Assembly (NCBI GenBank): GCA_902826715.1
Contig: CADEFX010000022.1
Span: forward strand, 1 to 32,434
DNA: 32,434 bases
Reading direction: 5' to 3'
DNA from: an uncultured Hyphomicrobiales bacterium
Lineage (GTDB): Bacteria > Pseudomonadota > Alphaproteobacteria > Rhizobiales > Hyphomicrobiaceae
The translations under genes were made by a program, and so were the position numbers. The notes beneath the pieces were generated by a model, which did not search any database, was not told where the DNA came from, and saw only the letters and a list, made by a program, of their open reading frames with translations. Every line of letters starts with the position of its first letter. The first letter of the stretch is position 1. This document shows positions 1-10,118 of this stretch, one piece after another.

Positions 1-53
1 CTGGCGGCTGGCTGTCCGGTCGTGGTGCGTGGAGCGGCGAGCGCCGCATCCCC

Positions 54-61
54 AATTTATA
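54..61. repeat. Left copy of 8-bp target-site duplication
   Basis: AATTTATA directly precedes the left end of the IS1595-type element and recurs at 3045-3052 after its right end. Eight-base duplications are the usual length for the IS1595 family. Both copies are preceded by TCCCC: the left one belongs to host DNA, the right one to the element end, so that longer match is coincidental. Confidence 0.85.
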
Positions 62-92
62 GGCGATTACGTAGTTGACACACCCAGCGATC
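62..92 (+). repeat. Left terminal inverted repeat of IS1595-type element
   Basis: Begins GGCGATTACGTAGTTGACAC and pairs with the inverted sequence at 3014-3044 (20 of the first 25 bases match). It contains a perfect TTGACA hexamer at 75-80 that the right end lacks (TTCACA there), so this end may supply the -35 box for the transposase. Confidence 0.8.
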
Positions 93-103
93 TAAGGCAT
101 TGT
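75..103 (+). promoter_or_regulatory. Possible transposase promoter within left element end
   Basis: TTGACA at 75-80 matches the sigma-70 -35 consensus exactly. Seventeen bases downstream, at 98-103, is CATTGT, a poor -10 match. The Shine-Dalgarno-like GAGGG at 113-117 and the ATG at 128 follow. The -35 box is convincing; the -10 is not. Confidence 0.35.
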
Positions 104-127
104 GTTTCTTAGAGAGGGACACAAGCC

Positions 128-1072
128 ATGTCGGCACTAAACCTGAAATATCTTCATGATGAAGCCGCCGCTTTCGCGGAGCTAGAACGCCTGATGTGGC
201 CTGACGGCCCGGTCTGCCCGCATTGCGGCGGGATGGATCGCATCTATGCCCTCAAGGGCGTTCGTTCGAAGCCCAGCAAGAAGAACCCTGAAGGCGTCGA
301 ACGCCACGGCCTCAAGAAGTGCGGCCACTGCCGCAAGCAGTTCACCGTCCGCGTTGGCACGATCTTCGAGGACAGCCACGCCCCGCTGCACAAGTGGTTT
401 CAGGCTATCCGCCTGATGGTGTCGTCCAAGAAGGGCATCAGCAGCCATCAACTGCACCGCACTCTGGAGGTGCAGTACAACACCGCTTGGTTCATGAGCC
501 ACCGCATCCGCGAGGCGATGCGTTCCGGCTCGCTGGCGCCCATGGGCGGCGGTGGCGGCATCGTCGAAGTGGACGAGACCTTCATCGGCAAGAAGAAGGA
601 CACGGCGAAACGCCGTGGCTACGCCCATATGCACTCCGTCCTCACTCTAGTTGATCGCACTGGCGAGGCGCGAAGCTTCCATGTGGATGGCACGAGCGCG
701 AAGGAAGTGGTTCCGATCGTGCTCCAGAACCTCGCTTTTGAAGCGAAGGTTGTGACCGACGAGGCTGGTCAGTACGCCCACCTCCACATTGACGTAGCCG
801 AGCATCACGTTGTGAAGCACCGCGTCAAAGAGTGGGGTCGCGGCGAGATCCACACCAACACGGTGGAAGGCTATTTCAGCGTCTTCAAGCGCGGCATGAA
901 GGGCGTCTATCAGCACTGCTCGGAGAAGCATCTGCACAGGTATCTGGCGGAGTTCGATTTCCGTTACAACAACCGCTCAAAGCTCGGGGTTGAAGACAAG
1001 GAACGCGCCGAGAAGGCGACCGTAGGCGCCAAGGGCAAGAGGCTGACTTACAGGGCCGCTGATAGGACCTAA
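128..1072 (+). CDS. IS1595-family (ISXO2-like) transposase
   Basis: Catalyses transposition of the element that carries it. The 314-aa protein has the usual IS1595 layout. An N-terminal zinc ribbon has C30-x2-C33 and C65-x2-C68. A central helical region follows, then an ISXO2-like DDE nuclease domain with D149 in EVDETF, D211 in VTDEAGQY, and N244/E247 plus K254 in the HTNTVEGYFSVFKR segment. The C-terminal FRYNNR motif is also typical. The length is normal and the frame is uninterrupted. GAGGG lies ten bases before the ATG. It sits just inside the left terminal repeat and is the only gene in the element with recognisable mobility function. The large antisense frames over it carry none of these motifs and are shadows. 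Confidence 0.95.
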   Translation: MSALNLKYLHDEAAAFAELERLMWPDGPVCPHCGGMDRIYALKGVRSKPSKKNPEGVERHGLKKCGHCRKQFTVRVGTIFEDSHAPLHKWFQAIRLMVSSKKGISSHQLHRTLEVQYNTAWFMSHRIREAMRSGSLAPMGGGGGIVEVDETFIGKKKDTAKRRGYAHMHSVLTLVDRTGEARSFHVDGTSAKEVVPIVLQNLAFEAKVVTDEAGQYAHLHIDVAEHHVVKHRVKEWGRGEIHTNTVEGYFSVFKRGMKGVYQHCSEKHLHRYLAEFDFRYNNRSKLGVEDKERAEKATVGAKGKRLTYRAADRT

Positions 1073-1156
1073 CGCAGAACAGATGACGCGCGAATTGCGT
1101 CGCGCGTATCGTGTCTGGATGCGATCGAAGAGCCGTCGCTAGAAGGAGCGCGGATC

Positions 1157-2011
1157 GTGGAACCTCAATCGCTTTGCGGGTGCTACGCACAGACCAAATG
1201 GGCCGAAACCGCTATCGACAAGCTCCAGGCCGACATCGAGGAGTTTGTCGCGACAGACCCATATGAAATCGCGTCCAAGGTGGACCTTCAGGCTAGCGAG
1301 GAGATCCGATATTTTAAGATCAAAGGGAAGCTTCCGCCCTGCATCTTCATTGATGTTCGCAACATCCTCGCGAACCTCCGTGATCCTTTGGACAACGTCC
1401 TTGCCATCCTCTCCCAACGGAAGAGAGGGGCTGCTGACAAAGTTGGCTTCCCGTTCGGCAAAAGCCCAAAGGCGCACAGTTCCGCGCTTAAAGAAATAAA
1501 AGATTTCCTCCCGGATGGCGCCGTCGATCTGATCCGCAAAGCCGAGACGCATCCGGGAGGGAATGCTCACCTTCGCGCCCTTCACGACCTCAACATCGAC
1601 AAGAAACACCGACTCCCCATCGCGCCATTCAACATCCGCACGTCCTGCTTGGCGCAGTGGCTGGCCGTGTTCAAGGGAGGCCGTGTTATTCGCGTCGGTT
1701 TCAAGAATGGCACCTATCTGGTGCCGATTCTGCCCGGTCTGCCTGGAGCCGGAAACCTCGCGCAGTCCAACCCGCCGCCCACCTTCATTCCCGACAAGGG
1801 TTTTGTCCTTGAGCCCGGACCGGGAGATGATGATATGGCCTTCTTGACCGTTGTGCCGGGAACGGAGTTTCAAGCAGATTTCAAGCCGACTCTCGATGTA
1901 GCGTTCACTAAGACGGTCGGGCTCGAACGGGAGCCTATTTGCGTAGCGCTCCATCAGATGCGCCATCTCGTCGAGGGCATCTTGCTGACGTTTGAGAAGC
2001 GCTTCTTCTGA
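1157..2011 (+). CDS. IS cargo protein, NLR-x2-LD / DKHR-type hypothetical
   Basis: Function unknown. The 284-aa product has no signal peptide or membrane segment. Two blocks look conserved and recall a widespread family of uncharacterised bacterial proteins: NLRDPLDN (73-80), followed by FPF (98-100), and LHDLNIDKKHR (142-152). In the family as I remember it these read roughly NLRSALDH, FPI and LxNxDKHR. The C-terminal half looks beta-rich. The start is GTG at 1157, chosen because AAGGAG at 1142-1147 lies nine bases upstream. It is 84 bases after the transposase and inside the element, so it travels with it. A 294-aa open frame on the opposite strand (1139-2023) covers the same DNA; I prefer this strand because of the motifs and the ribosome-binding site. 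Confidence 0.75.
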   Translation: MEPQSLCGCYAQTKWAETAIDKLQADIEEFVATDPYEIASKVDLQASEEIRYFKIKGKLPPCIFIDVRNILANLRDPLDNVLAILSQRKRGAADKVGFPFGKSPKAHSSALKEIKDFLPDGAVDLIRKAETHPGGNAHLRALHDLNIDKKHRLPIAPFNIRTSCLAQWLAVFKGGRVIRVGFKNGTYLVPILPGLPGAGNLAQSNPPPTFIPDKGFVLEPGPGDDDMAFLTVVPGTEFQADFKPTLDVAFTKTVGLEREPICVALHQMRHLVEGILLTFEKRFF

Positions 2012-2081
2012 CTGCTTACCCATGGCGCACCTCGCGGTGCGCGAACGAGTATGCTAGTGCGCGTAGCCATCTGGAGGCCCC

Positions 2082-2258
2082 ATGGCACAACGCAAGACGA
2101 AATCTGACGACGACAGGACACAGCGCCAGAAGTTTATAGAGACGGCGCGTGAGCACGGCGTCGACGAGAAAAGCGACAAGGCTTTTCTGGATGTGGTGCG
2201 CAAGATCGCGAAGGCACCCCCTCAGAAGGCCAAGAAGGCAGCCCGCAAGAAGTCCTAG
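2082..2258 (+). CDS. Small basic IS cargo peptide, 58 aa
   Basis: A short gene: ATG at 2082, TAG at 2256-2258, with GGAG at 2073-2076 at good spacing. The 58-aa peptide is highly charged, with an acidic/basic N-terminal part and a Lys/Ala-rich tail (KAPPQKAKKAARKKS) resembling nucleic-acid-binding tails. It contains FLDVVRKIAKAP but no domain I recognise. Its stop overlaps the stop of the convergent membrane-protein gene in the shared bases CTAG (2255-2258). The ribosome-binding site and tight fit between two cargo genes argue that it is real. Any function, including nucleic-acid binding, is guesswork. Confidence 0.6.
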   Translation: MAQRKTKSDDDRTQRQKFIETAREHGVDEKSDKAFLDVVRKIAKAPPQKAKKAARKKS

Positions 2259-2974
2259 CCCACCTCGTTTTCCCTTTTTGGATGGCGGCGCTTGTCCAGC
2301 CAGTTGCTCAGGCTGGTACCGTACCAAGCCGTCTTGAGCCACACCCACGACCGCGCCCAAACGCGGAGCGGCAAGGATGCGGGCGGCCAGACTATCTTTA
2401 ATTCGACGGTAGCTATGGAAAGTTCGGTGTAGACCGGCTTGTGAAGATATGGGGCTGCTCCCGGCACCCGTGCATCGAAAGTGGACGGATCGATCGCGAG
2501 CGCCTTCCATAGGCGTCGCTCCATACGAATGACCTTCCCTTCTTGGGTGCCAAACCCGAATACGAGAACGTGTCCATCTCGGGCCGCTCGAGCGAATTCC
2601 TTGAGATGCTCCCCGTCCACCATCTCCCAAAAATTCAGCCTTGCGTATTGGCGCCAGCCCCAGGCGCTCTCGCGATGCAAGTACCGCAGAACTTCGATTA
2701 TGTCGGTTTCCGGGTACGAGCCCGGCTCTAGTTCTGTCCTGATACGGCGCCGAACATCTTTGGCGCTCTGTCGATCGATCCACCACTTGAGGGGTGTGTA
2801 AGAAAACAGGAGCGCCGCCAGCACAAAGCAGGTGAGCGCGATCCAATTGGCGTCCAGCCATGCCCATGGGATCATGCTCCATGGGCCAGTCCGGTCGGGC
2901 GTGTGGCGCTCGCCCACAATGAGCAAGCCAATACCCACCAGCCATTGGATAGCGGGCCGCACAAATCGAGACAT
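2255..2974 (-). CDS. IS cargo membrane protein, hypothetical
   Basis: A 239-aa protein of unknown function read from the right end of the element inward. Two hydrophobic segments near the N-terminus (about residues 7-21 and 42-60) should anchor it in the inner membrane. They are followed by a basic stretch and a cytoplasmic domain of about 170 aa rich in Trp and Arg. A recognisable block is GHVLVFGFGTQEGKVIRMERR, which looks like a beta-hairpin fold but matches no family I can name. The ATG (2972-2974) is preceded by a G-rich stretch. Its stop overlaps that of the 58-aa gene. It lies entirely within the element, so it is cargo rather than host DNA. Confidence 0.7.
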   Translation of the reverse strand: MSRFVRPAIQWLVGIGLLIVGERHTPDRTGPWSMIPWAWLDANWIALTCFVLAALLFSYTPLKWWIDRQSAKDVRRRIRTELEPGSYPETDIIEVLRYLHRESAWGWRQYARLNFWEMVDGEHLKEFARAARDGHVLVFGFGTQEGKVIRMERRLWKALAIDPSTFDARVPGAAPYLHKPVYTELSIATVELKIVWPPASLPLRVWARSWVWLKTAWYGTSLSNWLDKRRHPKRENEVG

Positions 2975-3013
2975 CGAAAACGCCCCCGGATGAGCTTTCC
3001 TAATCTATATCCG

Positions 3014-3044
3014 GATTCGTGGGTTTGTGAAATACGCAATCCCC
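3014..3044 (-). repeat. Right terminal inverted repeat of IS1595-type element
   Basis: Read on the reverse strand it begins GGGGATTGCGTATTTCACAA and aligns to the left end with 23 of 31 identities. It is followed at once by the second AATTTATA. Confidence 0.8.
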
Positions 3045-3052
3045 AATTTATA
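3045..3052. repeat. Right copy of 8-bp target-site duplication
   Basis: AATTTATA, identical to 54-61, marks the right boundary of the inserted element. The uninterrupted target can be reconstructed as GCATCCCC-AATTTATA-ACGGTACG. Confidence 0.85.
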
Positions 3053-3218
3053 ACGGTACGGCCCTCGCCGTTCCGCCCCTGCGGGGGCCATGCAGTGACG
3101 CAAAGCCTCGGGCCCGATGGGCCGCGAGGGGTTTGTGCATGGAATGCGCGCACCCATCGACGCCACTGCGTCCCCGGCGATGTGGAGAGCGCGGTGCGTT
3201 GGCCGGGGCGTGTGAAGA

Positions 3219-3260
3219 TCCCGGATCGCCGCGCCGGCTTCGCAGGCGCGGCGTCCGGGA
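3219..3260. repeat. Long GC-rich palindrome
   Basis: TCCCGGATCGCCGCGCC (3219-3235) pairs with GGCGCGGCGTCCGGGA (3245-3260). All 16 base pairs form, with one bulged T at 3226 and a nine-base loop. It resembles abundant dispersed palindromes in Bradyrhizobium-type genomes and differs in sequence from the GTCATCC-type repeats nearby. Confidence 0.75.
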
Positions 3261-3338
3261 ATGCAGAGGGAGAGGGTGGGGCGACTCGGAGCGACGGGAG
3301 CAGGCGCAAAACAAAGCTGACCCGGACTCGTTGAGCCG

Positions 3339-3393
3339 TGGGTCCTCGGGACCCTCGGAACACGTCCGAGGGCAGGCAAGCCCGAGGATGACA
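3339..3393. repeat. Two-stem intergenic repeat, GTCATC/GGACCCA type
   Basis: Bounded by TGGGTCC and GGATGAC. An outer stem CCTCGGG/CCCGAGG encloses an inner stem CCCTCGGA/TCCGAGGG with an ACACG loop, followed by GGCAGGCAAG. Nearly the same block recurs at 3585-3637. Confidence 0.75.
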
Positions 3394-3483
3394 CCGTGAG
3401 AGTGGTTAGTCGGTGCACTTGAGGACAATCACAGCGATGCCGCACCCGCAGAGAGCGGGGATGGCGGTGCCACGCCCACCGAT

Positions 3484-3512
3484 GTCATCCTCGCGCTTGT
3501 CGCGAGGACCCA
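3484..3512. repeat. Single-stem intergenic repeat, GTCATC/GGACCCA type
   Basis: A 29-base unit from GTCATC to GGACCCA with stem CCTCGCG/CGCGAGG and loop CTTGT. It differs from the copy at 12914-12942 only by one G-C pair inverted to C-G, that is, a compensatory change. Confidence 0.75.
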
Positions 3513-3584
3513 TCGATCCGCGGATTGGATGGGCGAGTTGATGCGAGGCATCGCAAATCACGCTTGCCCGGGTTCGTGGAGCCA

Positions 3585-3637
3585 TGGGTCCTCGGACTCC
3601 TCGGAACATGTCCGAGGGCAGGCAAGTCCGAGGTGAC
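3585..3637. repeat. Two-stem intergenic repeat, second copy
   Basis: Same architecture as 3339-3393. The outer stem is CCTCGGAC/GTCCGAGG, the inner stem is CCTCGGA/TCCGAGG with an ACATG loop, and the shared tract GGCAGGCAAG follows. The last bases read GGTGAC instead of GGATGAC. Confidence 0.75.
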
Positions 3638-3782
3638 GTCGAGAGAGAGTGTATGGGCCGCGCCGTCCTTAGCGCTTAAGAACATGCTCGAGCCGCGTGA
3701 GGCGTGACGCCTATCACTCCAGGAGGAGTGGCGACGCATGCAGGCTTCGCCGATCGGAAGACGGAGGCGGCCGTGCCGCGCT

Positions 3783-4752: not shown

Positions 4753-6537
4753 ATGCCGCGTCTTGGCCGTCCGGCCGCGGAGTTAGGGCCGGAATATGAC
4801 GCGGTGGTCGTCGGCTCCGGATATGGCGGCGGCACGGCCGCGTCGCGTCTGGCACGCATGGGCTTCAAAGTCGCCGTGCTCGAGCGCGGCCGCGAGTATC
4901 TGCCAGGCGAGTATCCGACCAATCCGCTGCAGGCGCAGCGTGAGACGCAGATCTCATTCGGCAACAAGCGCATCGGCCCGACGAACGCGCTGTTCGACCT
5001 GCGCCTCGGCAGCGACGTGCACGTGATGCTCGGCTGCGGCTTGGGCGGCACGTCCCTCATCAACGCCAACGTGTGTCTGGCGCCGGACTTCCTGGTGTTC
5101 GAGGACGACGCGTGGCCGACGCCTGTCCGGTCCGACCACTGGCTCAACGTCGGCTATCACCGCGCCAAGCAGATGCTGGCGCCGGGTCCGCTGCCCGCCC
5201 AATTCAATCCGATGAAATTGCGCGCGCTGGAAACAGCGGCCAAGGCATTCGATCGGACGGTGGAGCGGGTGCCGCTGCATATCGCCTTCAGTGATGGCGC
5301 GACGTCCGCCGGCGTCCGCCAGCCCGCGTGTACGCACTGCGGCGATTGCATGGGCGGCTGCAACGTCGGCGCCAAGACAACGGTCCACTCCACCTATCTC
5401 GCCGATGCCGCCAATCACGGCGCGCAGATGTTCACGCACGTGCTGGTGCGGGCTGTGGAACCCGTCGGCGACGGACGCTGGCGCATCATCTACGTGCGCC
5501 AGGACGAGACGGCGCGCACGGTGCCGGTGCGCATGGTGACGGCGCGCCACGTCGTGCTCGCCGCCGGCACGCTCGGCTCCACCGAGATTCTGATGCGCTC
5601 GCGCGAGCGCGGCCTGAGCGTGTCGGACCGCCTCGGCAAAGGCTTTTCCACCAACGCGGACGCCATTGCCTTCGGCTACAACAACACGATGCCGGTCAAC
5701 GCCATCGGCGTCGGCTATCCACCGCGCAAGGGCGTGCCGAGCCCCGGTCCCGCTGTCACGGGCCTCATCGATTTCCGCCGCCGCAAGGACCCGCCCGACC
5801 GCCTCGCCATCGTCGAGGCCTCCGTGCAAAGCGCGATGGCGGCGCTGCTTCCGTTCGTGCTTCCCGCCGGCGCGATGGCGGGCACGTCCACGCAATCGGG
5901 ATTGAGCAGTGCCATTGCCGAGCTGCAGCGCACGCTGCAGAGCGTGATCCAGGGCGCCTACTCCGGCGCCGTGCACAACACGCAGGTGTTCCTCGCCGTC
6001 GGACACGACGGTGCCGCCGGCGAGCTGTCACTCAAGAACGATCAGATGGCCATCGCCTGGCCTGACGCTCTGAAGAACCCGGTCTACGACCGCATCCACG
6101 CGACACTCCAGAAGGCGGTTGCGGCGACGGGCGGCACCTACGTTCCCAACCCCGTGAGCAACAAGCTGCTCGGCGGCAACCTCATGACCGTGCATCCGCT
6201 GGGCGGCTGCGGCATGGGCGAGGATCGCATGCGCGGCGTCGTCGACCACAAGGGCCGCGTCTTCGATACCGATTCCGGCAAGGCTGCCGACGCCGTTCAC
6301 GATGGCCTGTTTGTCATGGACGGTTCGATCGTGCCGCGCTCGCTCGGAGTGCATCCGCTGCTGACCATCACTGCGCTGGCCGAGCGCTCCATGCTGCTGC
6401 TGGCCCGCGACCTCAAGCGCAACCTGCCGCTGGATCCGCCGGCCAATGCCCCGCAGCGCGATTTCACGCCGGGATTACGCGTGCTCGATAAGAGTCCGGG
6501 ATTCATGTCGCGTATGTTCGGCCGCGGTACGAGCTGA
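4753..6537 (+). CDS. GMC-family FAD oxidoreductase, cholesterol-oxidase-like
   Basis: Probably oxidises a hydrophobic alcohol with FAD. The 594-aa protein has an N-terminal Rossmann motif GSGYGGG (21-27) with E44 for the ribose, GCGLGGTSLINAN (flavin region), and the C-terminal GMC signature. The expected catalytic pair is H481 (HPLGGCGMG) and H534 (GVHPLLTI); many relatives, including cholesterol oxidase, carry Asn at the second site. A cysteine cluster C193-x2-C196-x2-C199-x3-C203 (CTHCGDCMGGC) sits mid-protein, spaced like an iron-sulfur site, as in the mycobacterial ChoD-like branch. GGAGGG lies shortly upstream of the ATG. It is paralogous to the N-terminal half of the next gene, 26 bases downstream, and likely co-transcribed with it. 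Exact substrate and electron acceptor are unknown. Confidence 0.9.
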   Translation: MPRLGRPAAELGPEYDAVVVGSGYGGGTAASRLARMGFKVAVLERGREYLPGEYPTNPLQAQRETQISFGNKRIGPTNALFDLRLGSDVHVMLGCGLGGTSLINANVCLAPDFLVFEDDAWPTPVRSDHWLNVGYHRAKQMLAPGPLPAQFNPMKLRALETAAKAFDRTVERVPLHIAFSDGATSAGVRQPACTHCGDCMGGCNVGAKTTVHSTYLADAANHGAQMFTHVLVRAVEPVGDGRWRIIYVRQDETARTVPVRMVTARHVVLAAGTLGSTEILMRSRERGLSVSDRLGKGFSTNADAIAFGYNNTMPVNAIGVGYPPRKGVPSPGPAVTGLIDFRRRKDPPDRLAIVEASVQSAMAALLPFVLPAGAMAGTSTQSGLSSAIAELQRTLQSVIQGAYSGAVHNTQVFLAVGHDGAAGELSLKNDQMAIAWPDALKNPVYDRIHATLQKAVAATGGTYVPNPVSNKLLGGNLMTVHPLGGCGMGEDRMRGVVDHKGRVFDTDSGKAADAVHDGLFVMDGSIVPRSLGVHPLLTITALAERSMLLLARDLKRNLPLDPPANAPQRDFTPGLRVLDKSPGFMSRMFGRGTS

Positions 6538-6563
6538 GGCGCGGGATGTCAGGAGAAGGACCC

Positions 6564-9500
6564 ATGCGCCTAGCGCGCGAGCTGGACAAGATGCAGGCAC
6601 GCTATGACGCAGTCGTCGTCGGCTCGGGCTATGGCGCCGGCGTCGCTGCCTCGCGCCTCGCCCGCATGGGCTACAGCGTCGCCGTGCTGGAGCGCGGCCG
6701 CGAGTTCGCCATCGGCGAGTTTCCCGACACACTGCCGGAGGCCACGCAGGAGTTTCAGTACGTCTTCAACGGCAGGCATGAGGGCAAGCGGACTGGGCTT
6801 TTCGAGCTGCACTACGGCCGCGACATGCACGTGCTGGTCGGTTGCGGACTGGGCGGCACCTCCCTCATCAATGCCAACGTTTCGCTGCCGCCCGATCCGC
6901 GTGTGTGGGAGGACCGGCGCTGGCCGACCGAGCTTTTCCACGACGATACGCTCGAGGAAGGTTTCGCCCGCGCGCGCCGCATGCTGCGTCCGATGCCCTA
7001 TCCAAATGACAAGCCGCTCGACAAGCTGACGCGCCTCGGCGAAGCGGCAACGGCGCTTGGTGCCGAGCTGTCGCATCCGCCCATCAACGTGGCCTTCCAG
7101 ACCGGCCCCAATGCGGCCGGCGTCGTCCAGCCGGCTTGCAATCTGTGCGGCGATTGCTGCTCGGGCTGCAACGTCGGCGCCAAGACCACGGTGCAGATGA
7201 CCTATCTGCCGGACGCCGTGAACCACGGTGCGGAGGTCTTCACCGGGGCCACCGTCCGTCACGTGAAGAAGGAAGCCGATGGCTGGCGCGTGCTGTATAC
7301 GCCGACCTCGGCCCGGCGCGATGGCTTCCGCTCGCCCGAGCGCTCGGTGGCCGCCAAGATGGTCGTGCTCGGCGCGGGCGCGCTCGGGTCCACGGAAATT
7401 CTTCTCCGCTCGCGCGCCGAAGGCCTCGCCGTGTCGGACCGCCTGGGCCAAAGCTTCACCGGCAACGGCGACGTGCTGGCCTTTGCCTACAACGGCGACA
7501 AGGCCGTCAACGGCGTCGGCGTCGGTGTTCCCGCGCGCACCGATATCGCTCCGCCCGGGCCCTGCATCGCCGGCGCCATCGACCTCAGGGCATCGTTCGC
7601 CCTCGAAGAGGGAATGATCATCGAGGAAGGCGTGCTTCCCTCCGGCCTCGCCGAGATCCTGCCCGCCACCTTCAGCGTCGGCCGCATCTTCGGCAAGGAC
7701 ACGGACCACGGAGCCGTCGACGAGGCAAAAGAGGCGGCGCGCCGTGCCACGAGCGCGTTGCTCGGCACCTGGCGCGGGGCCATGCACAACACCTCGACCT
7801 TCCTCGTCATGGCGCACGACGGCAGCGCCGGCCGCCTCGAAATGGACGACGACCGCATTCGCGTGGACTGGCCGGGCATCGCCAAGGAGCCGGTGTTCGA
7901 GCGCGTCGGCGATGCCTTGCTGAAGGCTGCGGCGGCCAACGGCGCCACCTACATTCGCAATCCCATCCAGAACACGTTTCTGGGCAAGAACGTCGTCAGC
8001 GTGCATCCGCTCGGCGGCTGCGGCATGGGCCGCGACAGCACGCAGGGCGTCGTCGATCATGCCTGCCGCGTCTATGACGCGAGCTCCAGCGCCGGGCCCA
8101 ACGCCGTCCATGAGGGCCTCTACGTCTGCGACGGCGCCGCCGTTCCGCGGTCAGTCGGTGTCAATCCGCTGCTGACCATCACGGCGCTTGCCGAGCGCGC
8201 CATGATGCACGTTGCCAAAAGCGGCGGCCGAGATTTCGACGACAAGGCCAAATCTGATGCGCCGGTCCGCCAGCTCCCGGCAGCGGCAGAGATGCCGTCG
8301 ACGAAACTCGGCATGCTGGTGCGCAAGATCGGACTGCATGATCTGACGGGAATGGCCACCGAGGCCATCGCCACCCTGAAAGCCGCCGGTCAAGGCGCCG
8401 ATGCGAAAACGGTGCCGGTCGACACATCGGCGGCAGGCATCGAATTCACCGAACGCATGGCTGGCTACGTCTCCGACAAGCGCGGTGCCGACCACGCCGA
8501 GGCCGCGGCGACCGGCAAGGCTGCAGGCGCCGACTTCAGCTTCACCGTGGCCGTCCGCATTGGCGACATCGATGCTTTCATTCGTGATCCCGCCCACGCC
8601 GGCACGCTCTCGGGCACCGCCATGTGCTCCGCGCTGTCGCCCGATCCGCTCGACATCAGCAACGGCGTGTTCCGCCTCATGCGCCGGTCGGACGAGCAGG
8701 TCGAGACGCGGCTGTTCGAATACCTGATGACGCTGACCACCCGCGACGGCCGGACCTTCGACTTCAAGGGCGTGAAATACGTGCACGACGATCGTCGCGC
8801 CGATCTGGTGGCCGATACGACGACGCTGTTCATCGATCTGGCCGAGACCGGCACGACCGGCAACGCCGCGCGCGGCATCCTGCGCATCAAGCCTCTGGAC
8901 TTTGCCAAGCAGGTGCGCACGCTCAAGCCCATCGGCGGCGGGTCGCATATCGAGCGCGCGAGCGCGGTCGCCAAGTTCGGTGCCCTGTTCGCGGGCCAGC
9001 TTTTCGACGTCTACGGCGACATCTTCGCGCCCGTCCGCCGCTTCGATCCCGAGCGCGCGCGCAAGAAGCGCGGCCTGCGCGCCGGCGAGCCGGAGGTCCA
9101 CGGCTTCACCACCGCCGACGGCAAGCGTCTGCGGCTCGCCCGCTACAAGGGCGGCGCCAAGGGCCCGCTCCTCTTCAGCCATGGCCTGGGCGTCTCGAGC
9201 CTGACTTTTCGCATCGACACCATCGACACCAACCTGCTCGAGTTCATGGTCGAGCACGGCTACGACTGCTGGCTGCTGGACTTCCGTGCCAGTATCGATC
9301 TGCCATATGCGCGCGAGCGCTGGACCGCCGACGATTGCGCGCGCGAGGACTACCAGCCGGCCGTCGATCTCATCCGCCGCGAGACCGGCGCCCAGAGCGT
9401 GCAGGTTCTGGCACATTGCTTCGGTGCCACCACCTTCGTCATGGCCATGCTCGGCGGGCATCTCTCGGGGGTCCGCTCGGCCGTGATCTCGCAGATCGCC

Positions 9501-10118
9501 GCCGACGTCATCGTTCCCTTTTATCCGCAGCGCCTCTTGGCCTACCTGCGGACGCCGTCCGTGCTCAGCCTTCTGGGCATCGGCGCCGTCAACGCCCGCG
9601 CCACCGTCAACGACGGCATTGCCAACCGCATCGCAGACGGCCTGATCCGCGTGGCCGTGCCCTTCCAACGCGAGGAGCGCACCCGCAACGCCACCTCCAG
9701 CCGCATCACTGCGTTGTATGGCCAGCTTTATGAAACCGACCAGCTCAACACACTGACGTTCGAGACCGGGCTGCCGGAAATGTTCGGCGACGCCAACATC
9801 GACGCCTTCAAGCACCTCGCCCTCATCGCCCGCCGCACTACCGTAGTCGATGCCGCCGGCAACGACGCCTACATGCCGCATCTGGAGCGTCTGGCAATTC
9901 CGATCTCATTCATTCATGGCGGCGAAAACGCCTGTTTCCTGCCCGAAAGCACAGCACGCACGCTGGCCAAGCTGTCGGCCCGCAACGGCTCCCATCTCTA
10001 CGACCGTCATGTGATCCCCAACTACGGCCACATCGACTGCATTTTCGGCAAGTCGGCCGCCGTAGACGTCTATCCTAAAATGCTGACACATCTGGAAGAA
10101 ACGGCTATCGTCAGCTGA
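6564..10118 (+). CDS. GMC oxidoreductase fused to alpha/beta-hydrolase
   Basis: A 1184-aa multidomain enzyme. Residues 1 to about 570 are a second GMC flavoprotein, with GSGYGAG (20-26), cysteine cluster C192-x2-C195-x2-C198-C199-x2-C202, H481 (HPLGGCGMG) and N534 (GVNPLLTI). A middle domain at about 624-790, rich in beta strands, is of a type I cannot name. From about 842 to the end is an alpha/beta-hydrolase with oxyanion region SHGLGVSS, nucleophile elbow AHCFGA (Cys at 952 instead of Ser), probable acid around E1121 in HGGEN, and His 1156 in NYGHIDC. The frame is open from an ATG at 6546, but AGGAG at 6551-6555 is placed for the ATG at 6564, so I use that. It probably oxidises an alcohol and cleaves or transfers an acyl group on the same molecule; that coupling is inference. 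Confidence 0.9.
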   Translation: MRLARELDKMQARYDAVVVGSGYGAGVAASRLARMGYSVAVLERGREFAIGEFPDTLPEATQEFQYVFNGRHEGKRTGLFELHYGRDMHVLVGCGLGGTSLINANVSLPPDPRVWEDRRWPTELFHDDTLEEGFARARRMLRPMPYPNDKPLDKLTRLGEAATALGAELSHPPINVAFQTGPNAAGVVQPACNLCGDCCSGCNVGAKTTVQMTYLPDAVNHGAEVFTGATVRHVKKEADGWRVLYTPTSARRDGFRSPERSVAAKMVVLGAGALGSTEILLRSRAEGLAVSDRLGQSFTGNGDVLAFAYNGDKAVNGVGVGVPARTDIAPPGPCIAGAIDLRASFALEEGMIIEEGVLPSGLAEILPATFSVGRIFGKDTDHGAVDEAKEAARRATSALLGTWRGAMHNTSTFLVMAHDGSAGRLEMDDDRIRVDWPGIAKEPVFERVGDALLKAAAANGATYIRNPIQNTFLGKNVVSVHPLGGCGMGRDSTQGVVDHACRVYDASSSAGPNAVHEGLYVCDGAAVPRSVGVNPLLTITALAERAMMHVAKSGGRDFDDKAKSDAPVRQLPAAAEMPSTKLGMLVRKIGLHDLTGMATEAIATLKAAGQGADAKTVPVDTSAAGIEFTERMAGYVSDKRGADHAEAAATGKAAGADFSFTVAVRIGDIDAFIRDPAHAGTLSGTAMCSALSPDPLDISNGVFRLMRRSDEQVETRLFEYLMTLTTRDGRTFDFKGVKYVHDDRRADLVADTTTLFIDLAETGTTGNAARGILRIKPLDFAKQVRTLKPIGGGSHIERASAVAKFGALFAGQLFDVYGDIFAPVRRFDPERARKKRGLRAGEPEVHGFTTADGKRLRLARYKGGAKGPLLFSHGLGVSSLTFRIDTIDTNLLEFMVEHGYDCWLLDFRASIDLPYARERWTADDCAREDYQPAVDLIRRETGAQSVQVLAHCFGATTFVMAMLGGHLSGVRSAVISQIAADVIVPFYPQRLLAYLRTPSVLSLLGIGAVNARATVNDGIANRIADGLIRVAVPFQREERTRNATSSRITALYGQLYETDQLNTLTFETGLPEMFGDANIDAFKHLALIARRTTVVDAAGNDAYMPHLERLAIPISFIHGGENACFLPESTARTLAKLSARNGSHLYDRHVIPNYGHIDCIFGKSAAVDVYPKMLTHLEETAIVS

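Follow-up and report, generated by a model that had tools for sequence, protein, structure and literature searches.

The element described here lies near the left end of contig CADEFX010000022.1 (assembly GCA_902826715.1) of an uncultured Hyphomicrobiales bacterium, of which positions 1 to 32,434, the whole stretch analyzed, are referred to as the window. It occupies window positions 62-3044, 2983 base pairs (bp) in length, and belongs to the IS1595 family of insertion sequences (IS). The inverted ends at 62-92 (GGCGATTACGTAGTTGACACACCCAGCGATC, forward strand) and 3014-3044 (reverse complement, GGGGATTGCGTATTTCACAAACCCACGAATC) are identical at 23 of 31 positions by direct reading and at 19 of 24 in a second comparison, and the element is bordered at 54-61 and 3045-3052 by a perfect 8-bp direct duplication, AATTTATA; imperfect terminal inverted repeats together with an 8-bp target duplication are the marks of the family. 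After scanning the whole 32-kb window with an end consensus taken from related elements of the transposase clade, the left end scored 20/24 and the right end 18/24, and nothing besides these two was found above 15/24. TTGACA at 75-80, inside the left inverted end, is a possible −35 box for the transposase gene, and a promoter scan gave a result at chance level. The idea of an inward promoter in both ends was dropped because the right end of many relatives carries no TTGACA.

Between the ends are located four genes, tnpA (IS1595-family transposase, 314 amino acids, 128-1072, plus strand), C1 (284 amino acids, GTG start, 1157-2011, plus strand), C2 (58 amino acids, basic with an isoelectric point of 10.3, 2082-2258, plus strand) and C3 (239 amino acids, 2255-2974, minus strand). 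C2 and C3 are convergent and have stop-codon bases in common at CTAG 2255-2258. About two thirds of the element is non-transposase DNA, and C1 and C3, both enclosed by the ends, are passengers without relation to transposition, as in the transporter IS (tIS) type of the family. The feature is thus a complete, intact IS1595-family transposon of the tIS type. The original prediction, read from the letters of the window, had described a complete IS1595-type element with these boundaries, this share of non-transposase DNA and these four genes including the overlapping stop codons, and each of these points was borne out; empty sites, which it had proposed to look for in closely related strains, were found as insert-free paralogous copies within the same genome.

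The element is flanked on both sides by parts of a repeat that the host genome contains in many copies. The left flank (1-53, starting at the contig end) matches at least five complete paralogous copies of the repeat (loci L241, L243, L244, L245 and L247), which carry no insert and a single AAATTATA, differing by one base from the duplicated AATTTATA. These empty copies reach up to 97% identity with the two flanks joined together and are collinear across the insertion point, the right flank (3053-3305, with many partial copies in the genome) representing the rest of the interrupted repeat. The presence of one AAATTATA in the empty copies is strong evidence for a precise insertion into the host repeat, by which 8 bp were duplicated. 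The direct repeat around the element extends to 14 nucleotides, ATCCCCAATTTATA, and a target duplication of this length was ruled out by the empty sites, because the left ATCCCC pre-existed in the host repeat and the right ATCCCC belongs to the end of the element itself. According to the original prediction, finding this cargo at the locus in the absence of transposase and inverted ends would have been grounds for rejecting it; no such case was seen, the paralogous sites being empty. More widely, window positions 1-53 and 3053-3650 consist of multi-copy repeats with many partial copies in the host genome, several of them at contig ends, and the flanking repeat is apparently an assembly-breaking intergenic repeat family.

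The transposase is intact and shows the ISXO2-like/IS1595 catalytic domain with an N-terminal zinc ribbon, all matches being above the curated cut-offs: PF12762 with 117.9 bits (cut-off 27, E 5e-34), PF12760 with 42.2 bits (cut-off 25.4, E 8e-11) and NF033547 of NCBIfam with 195.6 bits (cut-off 75, E 1e-57). The host genome contains one full copy only, with partial or distant relatives elsewhere. A related transposase was detected in 102 of 385 sampled genomes of the class Alphaproteobacteria, and in 31 of 103 genomes of the host family, most likely the Hyphomicrobiaceae, under a stricter threshold than that of the class survey. IS1595 elements with passenger genes are frequent among the Alphaproteobacteria, and in many relatives matched ends and 8-bp duplications were found, which put the element length between about 1.9 and 4.3 kb. 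For many elements of the clade the order is the same, tnpA on the plus strand followed by a gene in the same direction (slot A, here C1), C2 again in the same direction, a convergent gene (slot B, here C3) and the right end; slot A is thus the space between tnpA and C2, and slot B that between C2 and the right end. In one locus (L266, 2909-8448 in reverse-complement coordinates), two C2-bearing IS1595 elements are adjacent, and the target sequence TGACCTTT both borders and separates them, which would fit insertion of one at its neighbor's target duplication.

C2 is associated with this transposase clade and diverges together with it. A search led by C2 gave matches in 20 of the 385 class genomes, and for 18 of the 22 loci obtained in this way an IS1595 transposase is located upstream on the same strand. 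The family shares the signature Q..RF...ARE...DE...F...L..IA. On a maximum-likelihood tree of 77 transposases, 16 of the 17 members of one clade (support 100/99) carry C2; since this tree mixes C2-led and transposase-led loci, the count was repeated on transposase-led loci. C2 was then present in 11/11 loci with at least 65% identity to the window transposase, 6/7 at 60-65%, 11/16 at 55-60%, 3/18 at 50-55%, 0/12 at 45-50% and 1/13 at 30-45%. Distances between transposases and between C2 proteins were correlated in two sets by the Mantel test (r=0.55, p=0.0002, n=19 and r=0.47, p=0.0003, n=32). C2 had no match above cut-offs in Pfam, NCBIfam or PADLOC, and a sub-threshold match to AsiA was discarded. 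From its constancy, C2 is best considered a putative core gene of the element rather than cargo. That C2 instead represents conserved cargo (an antitoxin, an addiction factor or a solitary immunity protein, for example) and not an accessory of transposition is in our estimate unlikely. Like many antitoxins, C2 is a small basic protein; it is without a known domain and adjoins toxin genes in several elements, but it is kept when the toxin gene is absent, as in several elements without a slot A gene where it lies directly behind tnpA, and its divergence follows that of the transposase.

C1 belongs to a widespread, unnamed protein family. When 84,980 genomes were scanned with a family motif, 80 C1-family loci were detected in many phyla, and for 20 of these 80 an IS1595 transposase or a fragment thereof was located 27-1400 bp upstream on the same strand. 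The homologs show 20-32% identity, and the family is also found in many IS1595 elements without C2. No co-divergence of C1 with the transposase was seen (Mantel r=0.09, p=0.22, n=20). C1 had no match above cut-offs in Pfam, NCBIfam or PADLOC, and none in plasmids or in viral contigs; a single match from a viral library, A0A514TZW7 (E 8e-11), indicates that the C1 fold is present in a virus record. The seven invariant residues of the family, N73, L74, R75, L78, D79, K150 and H151, are all kept in the window copy, while the near-invariant H19, G68, D69, H72 and D149 are lost, and because of this loss the window C1 may have an altered activity.

The AlphaFold models of C1 proteins are helical bundles, with a predicted local distance difference test (pLDDT) score of 80.5 for the window copy and 86.3 for a typical family member. 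HEPN toxins, HepT of MntA-HepT and AF_0298, gave the best structural resemblance to two predicted C1-family members, topping both lists of a second-look structure aligner with Z-scores of 8.0-8.6, which fall in the range given for common helical bundles (root-mean-square deviation 3.3-4.1, 111-129 residues aligned). This resemblance came from the second-look aligner only, and Foldseek of the C1 model against PDB gave nothing significant. The R-x4-6-H motif of HEPN toxins is not conserved in C1: R75 is invariant, but at position 80 only 35 of 59 members have H, where the window copy has N, and the only R-x4-6-H of the window C1 (R127) falls outside the conserved positions. Taken together, the Z-scores in the common-bundle range, the Foldseek result and the unconserved motif leave C1 as HEPN-like in predicted fold at best and not as a recognized HEPN member. 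C1 differs from these toxins further in the lack of a sequence match, and the window element carries no nucleotidyltransferase partner gene.

C3, taken as a membrane protein, is an open frame whose base composition is coding-like and which has a single clear hydrophobic stretch around residues 38-63. Its position suggests that it is the slot B cargo of this element. No homolog of C3 was found in plasmids or in 38 loci retrieved from the host family, and none above cut-offs in Pfam, NCBIfam or PADLOC; the two matches in the 385 class genomes (E 0.002-0.006, over short parts) were taken as chance. A sub-threshold match to HpsJ was discarded, and a convergent gene of 239 amino acids in M. oryzae (L026), like C3 in position and length, proved not to be homologous. 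The orphan state of C3, together with the loss of near-invariant residues from the window C1, would fit an ordinary IS1595 insertion with decayed, functionless host genes gained by chance. This we consider improbable, as all four frames are intact with coding-like GC content by codon position, the invariant residues of C1 are kept, and the C1 family adjoins IS1595 transposases in several phyla.

Both slots turn over across the relatives of the element. The genes found there include PIN toxins (L024, L026 and L060), a DUF433 and PIN_10 pair (L057), SocA/Panacea proteins (L076, and L279 near a transposase where the right end was not found), HEPN (L059), an N6_N4 methylase with an Mrr domain in slot B (L070), a HigB/HTH pair of the HigBA type (L289) and DUF3800 (L072); AbiEi/AbiEii are carried by an IS1595 element without C2 (L301). 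The defence- or toxin-like character proposed earlier for the cargo agrees with this set. In L070 (3550-6761), the slot A gene pair resembles the PIN pair of L026 and the slot B methylase has an Mrr-like domain, so that restriction-modification and toxin-antitoxin genes are possibly combined in one 4.3-kb element. Members of one slot B family, which have a 'WSLWDML'-type motif close to their start, recur in L059, L068, L069, L073, L281, L282, L284, L287 and L289, and the L059 member matches the Pfam HEPN model just above the cut-off. DUF3800 proteins also recur as IS1595 cargo (L072, L273, L274 and L284).

The order tnpA-C1-C2 was detected at unrelated sites in L180/L270 (2176 bp, duplication CATTTCGG) and L265 (2158 bp, duplication TCATGTGA), of which the transposases are 68% and 71% identical to that of the window and the C1 proteins 26% and 32%, respectively. 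Such a low identity reflects either very fast evolution of C1 or separate capture of related C1 genes. The original prediction had suggested that the three genes could form one co-moving module, and had proposed to ask whether they recur between similar ends at unrelated sites. The recurrence holds for tnpA-C1-C2 in these elements and fails for C3, which has no relative in any element examined; the joint module itself is not supported, since C2 is near-constant with the transposase, C1 is a cargo family exchanged between elements, and the recurring C1-C2 pairs show C1 only 24-32% identical against 63-71% for the transposases. Nor do C1 and C2 behave as a type II toxin-antitoxin pair, C2 being found with many slot A genes or none and C1 being found without C2. 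A single co-functioning set of C1, C2 and C3, for instance toxin, antitoxin and membrane partner, is therefore very improbable in spite of the tight gene packing and the recurrence of tnpA-C1-C2 in two other elements, given the many partners of C2, the C1 genes in C2-free IS1595 elements, the absence of C3 elsewhere and the lack of co-divergence between C1 and the transposase.

We regard as probable that tnpA and C2 make up the transposition module of the element and that C1 and C3 are exchangeable cargo, probably of the defence or addiction type, held in two slots. By analogy with other IS1595 elements, the transposase would act on both ends and insert the element with an 8-bp duplication. 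C2, a small basic and probably helical protein, would assist or regulate transposition through the ends or through the transposase, as its constancy, position and charge suggest. From the cargo of relatives in the same slots, C1 and probably C3 too would be toxin-antitoxin-like or defence-like genes, which may stabilize the element or protect the host.

Several observations weigh against this division into transposition module and cargo. Two loci, L113 and L286, are without detectable C2, and C2 is present in four loci without a nearby transposase, one of which keeps an end-like motif; co-inheritance by itself would also fit a selfish gene that became fixed at an early stage. Slot B is not universal, no clear gene being found there in the closest relatives (L180/L270, L265 and L267-L269), and C3 is taken as a functional gene from the length and composition of its reading frame only, because it has no relatives. 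The second scanned set of cargo proteins was picked partly for toxin-like look, and the list of cargo is therefore qualitative; no enrichment of toxin-antitoxin or defence genes is claimed for this reason. Tentatively, and with rather more doubt than for the division itself, the reading may be extended to a distinct IS1595 lineage of two genes, transposase and a small basic C2 that controls or assists transposition, whose slots repeatedly capture toxin-antitoxin and defence genes, C1 representing a widespread toxin- or defence-type family whose bundle resembles HEPN and whose active site is a conserved H...GDxxHNLRxALD...DKH.

The tIS type was reportedly described by Siguier, Gagnevin and Chandler in 2009, with tISCpe8 and MTnSag1 said to be examples. 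Passenger-bearing IS1595 elements are already known under this name (PMC3129680, PMC5704250), and the present element is a further member of the type. It shares with tISCpe8 and MTnSag1 the IS1595 transposase, the imperfect inverted ends, the 8-bp duplication and the passengers between the ends; its passengers are different, tISCpe8 being described as a lincomycin-resistance element (PMC5704250). Elements of the MTnSag1/tISCpe8 type have an origin of transfer (oriT) and are mobilized by a conjugative element, and in the Pfam scan no relaxase domain was seen in the proteins of the window element. A parallel without kinship is provided by the Tn3 family, in which different transposons have independently gained toxin-antitoxin pairs, toxins of the PIN and HEPN types among them (Lima-Mendez et al. 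2020, PMC7157771). In both systems toxin-antitoxin genes travel with transposition genes, but the transposase families are unrelated and the window element has a small constant companion gene between its cargo slots. The C2 companion and the slot layout are new as far as the accessible literature shows, the comparison being made without ISfinder or the founding 2009 description of tIS.

Small IS are usually taken to consist of the transposase only, and here an IS1595 clade carries a conserved second gene that is unnamed in the curated libraries. Within 2-4 kb, its layout exchanges toxin-antitoxin and defence-type genes. A role of C2 in transposition, if there is one, would add a new and simple case to the known accessory factors. 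The cargo slots are a possible place to find undescribed defence genes, as illustrated by the C1 family. Elsewhere in the window, two adjacent GMC-oxidoreductase-like genes at 4753-6537 and 6546-10118 show by eye about 67% DNA identity over part of their lengths, and the second, of 1190 amino acids, is seemingly fused to an alpha/beta-hydrolase-like part.

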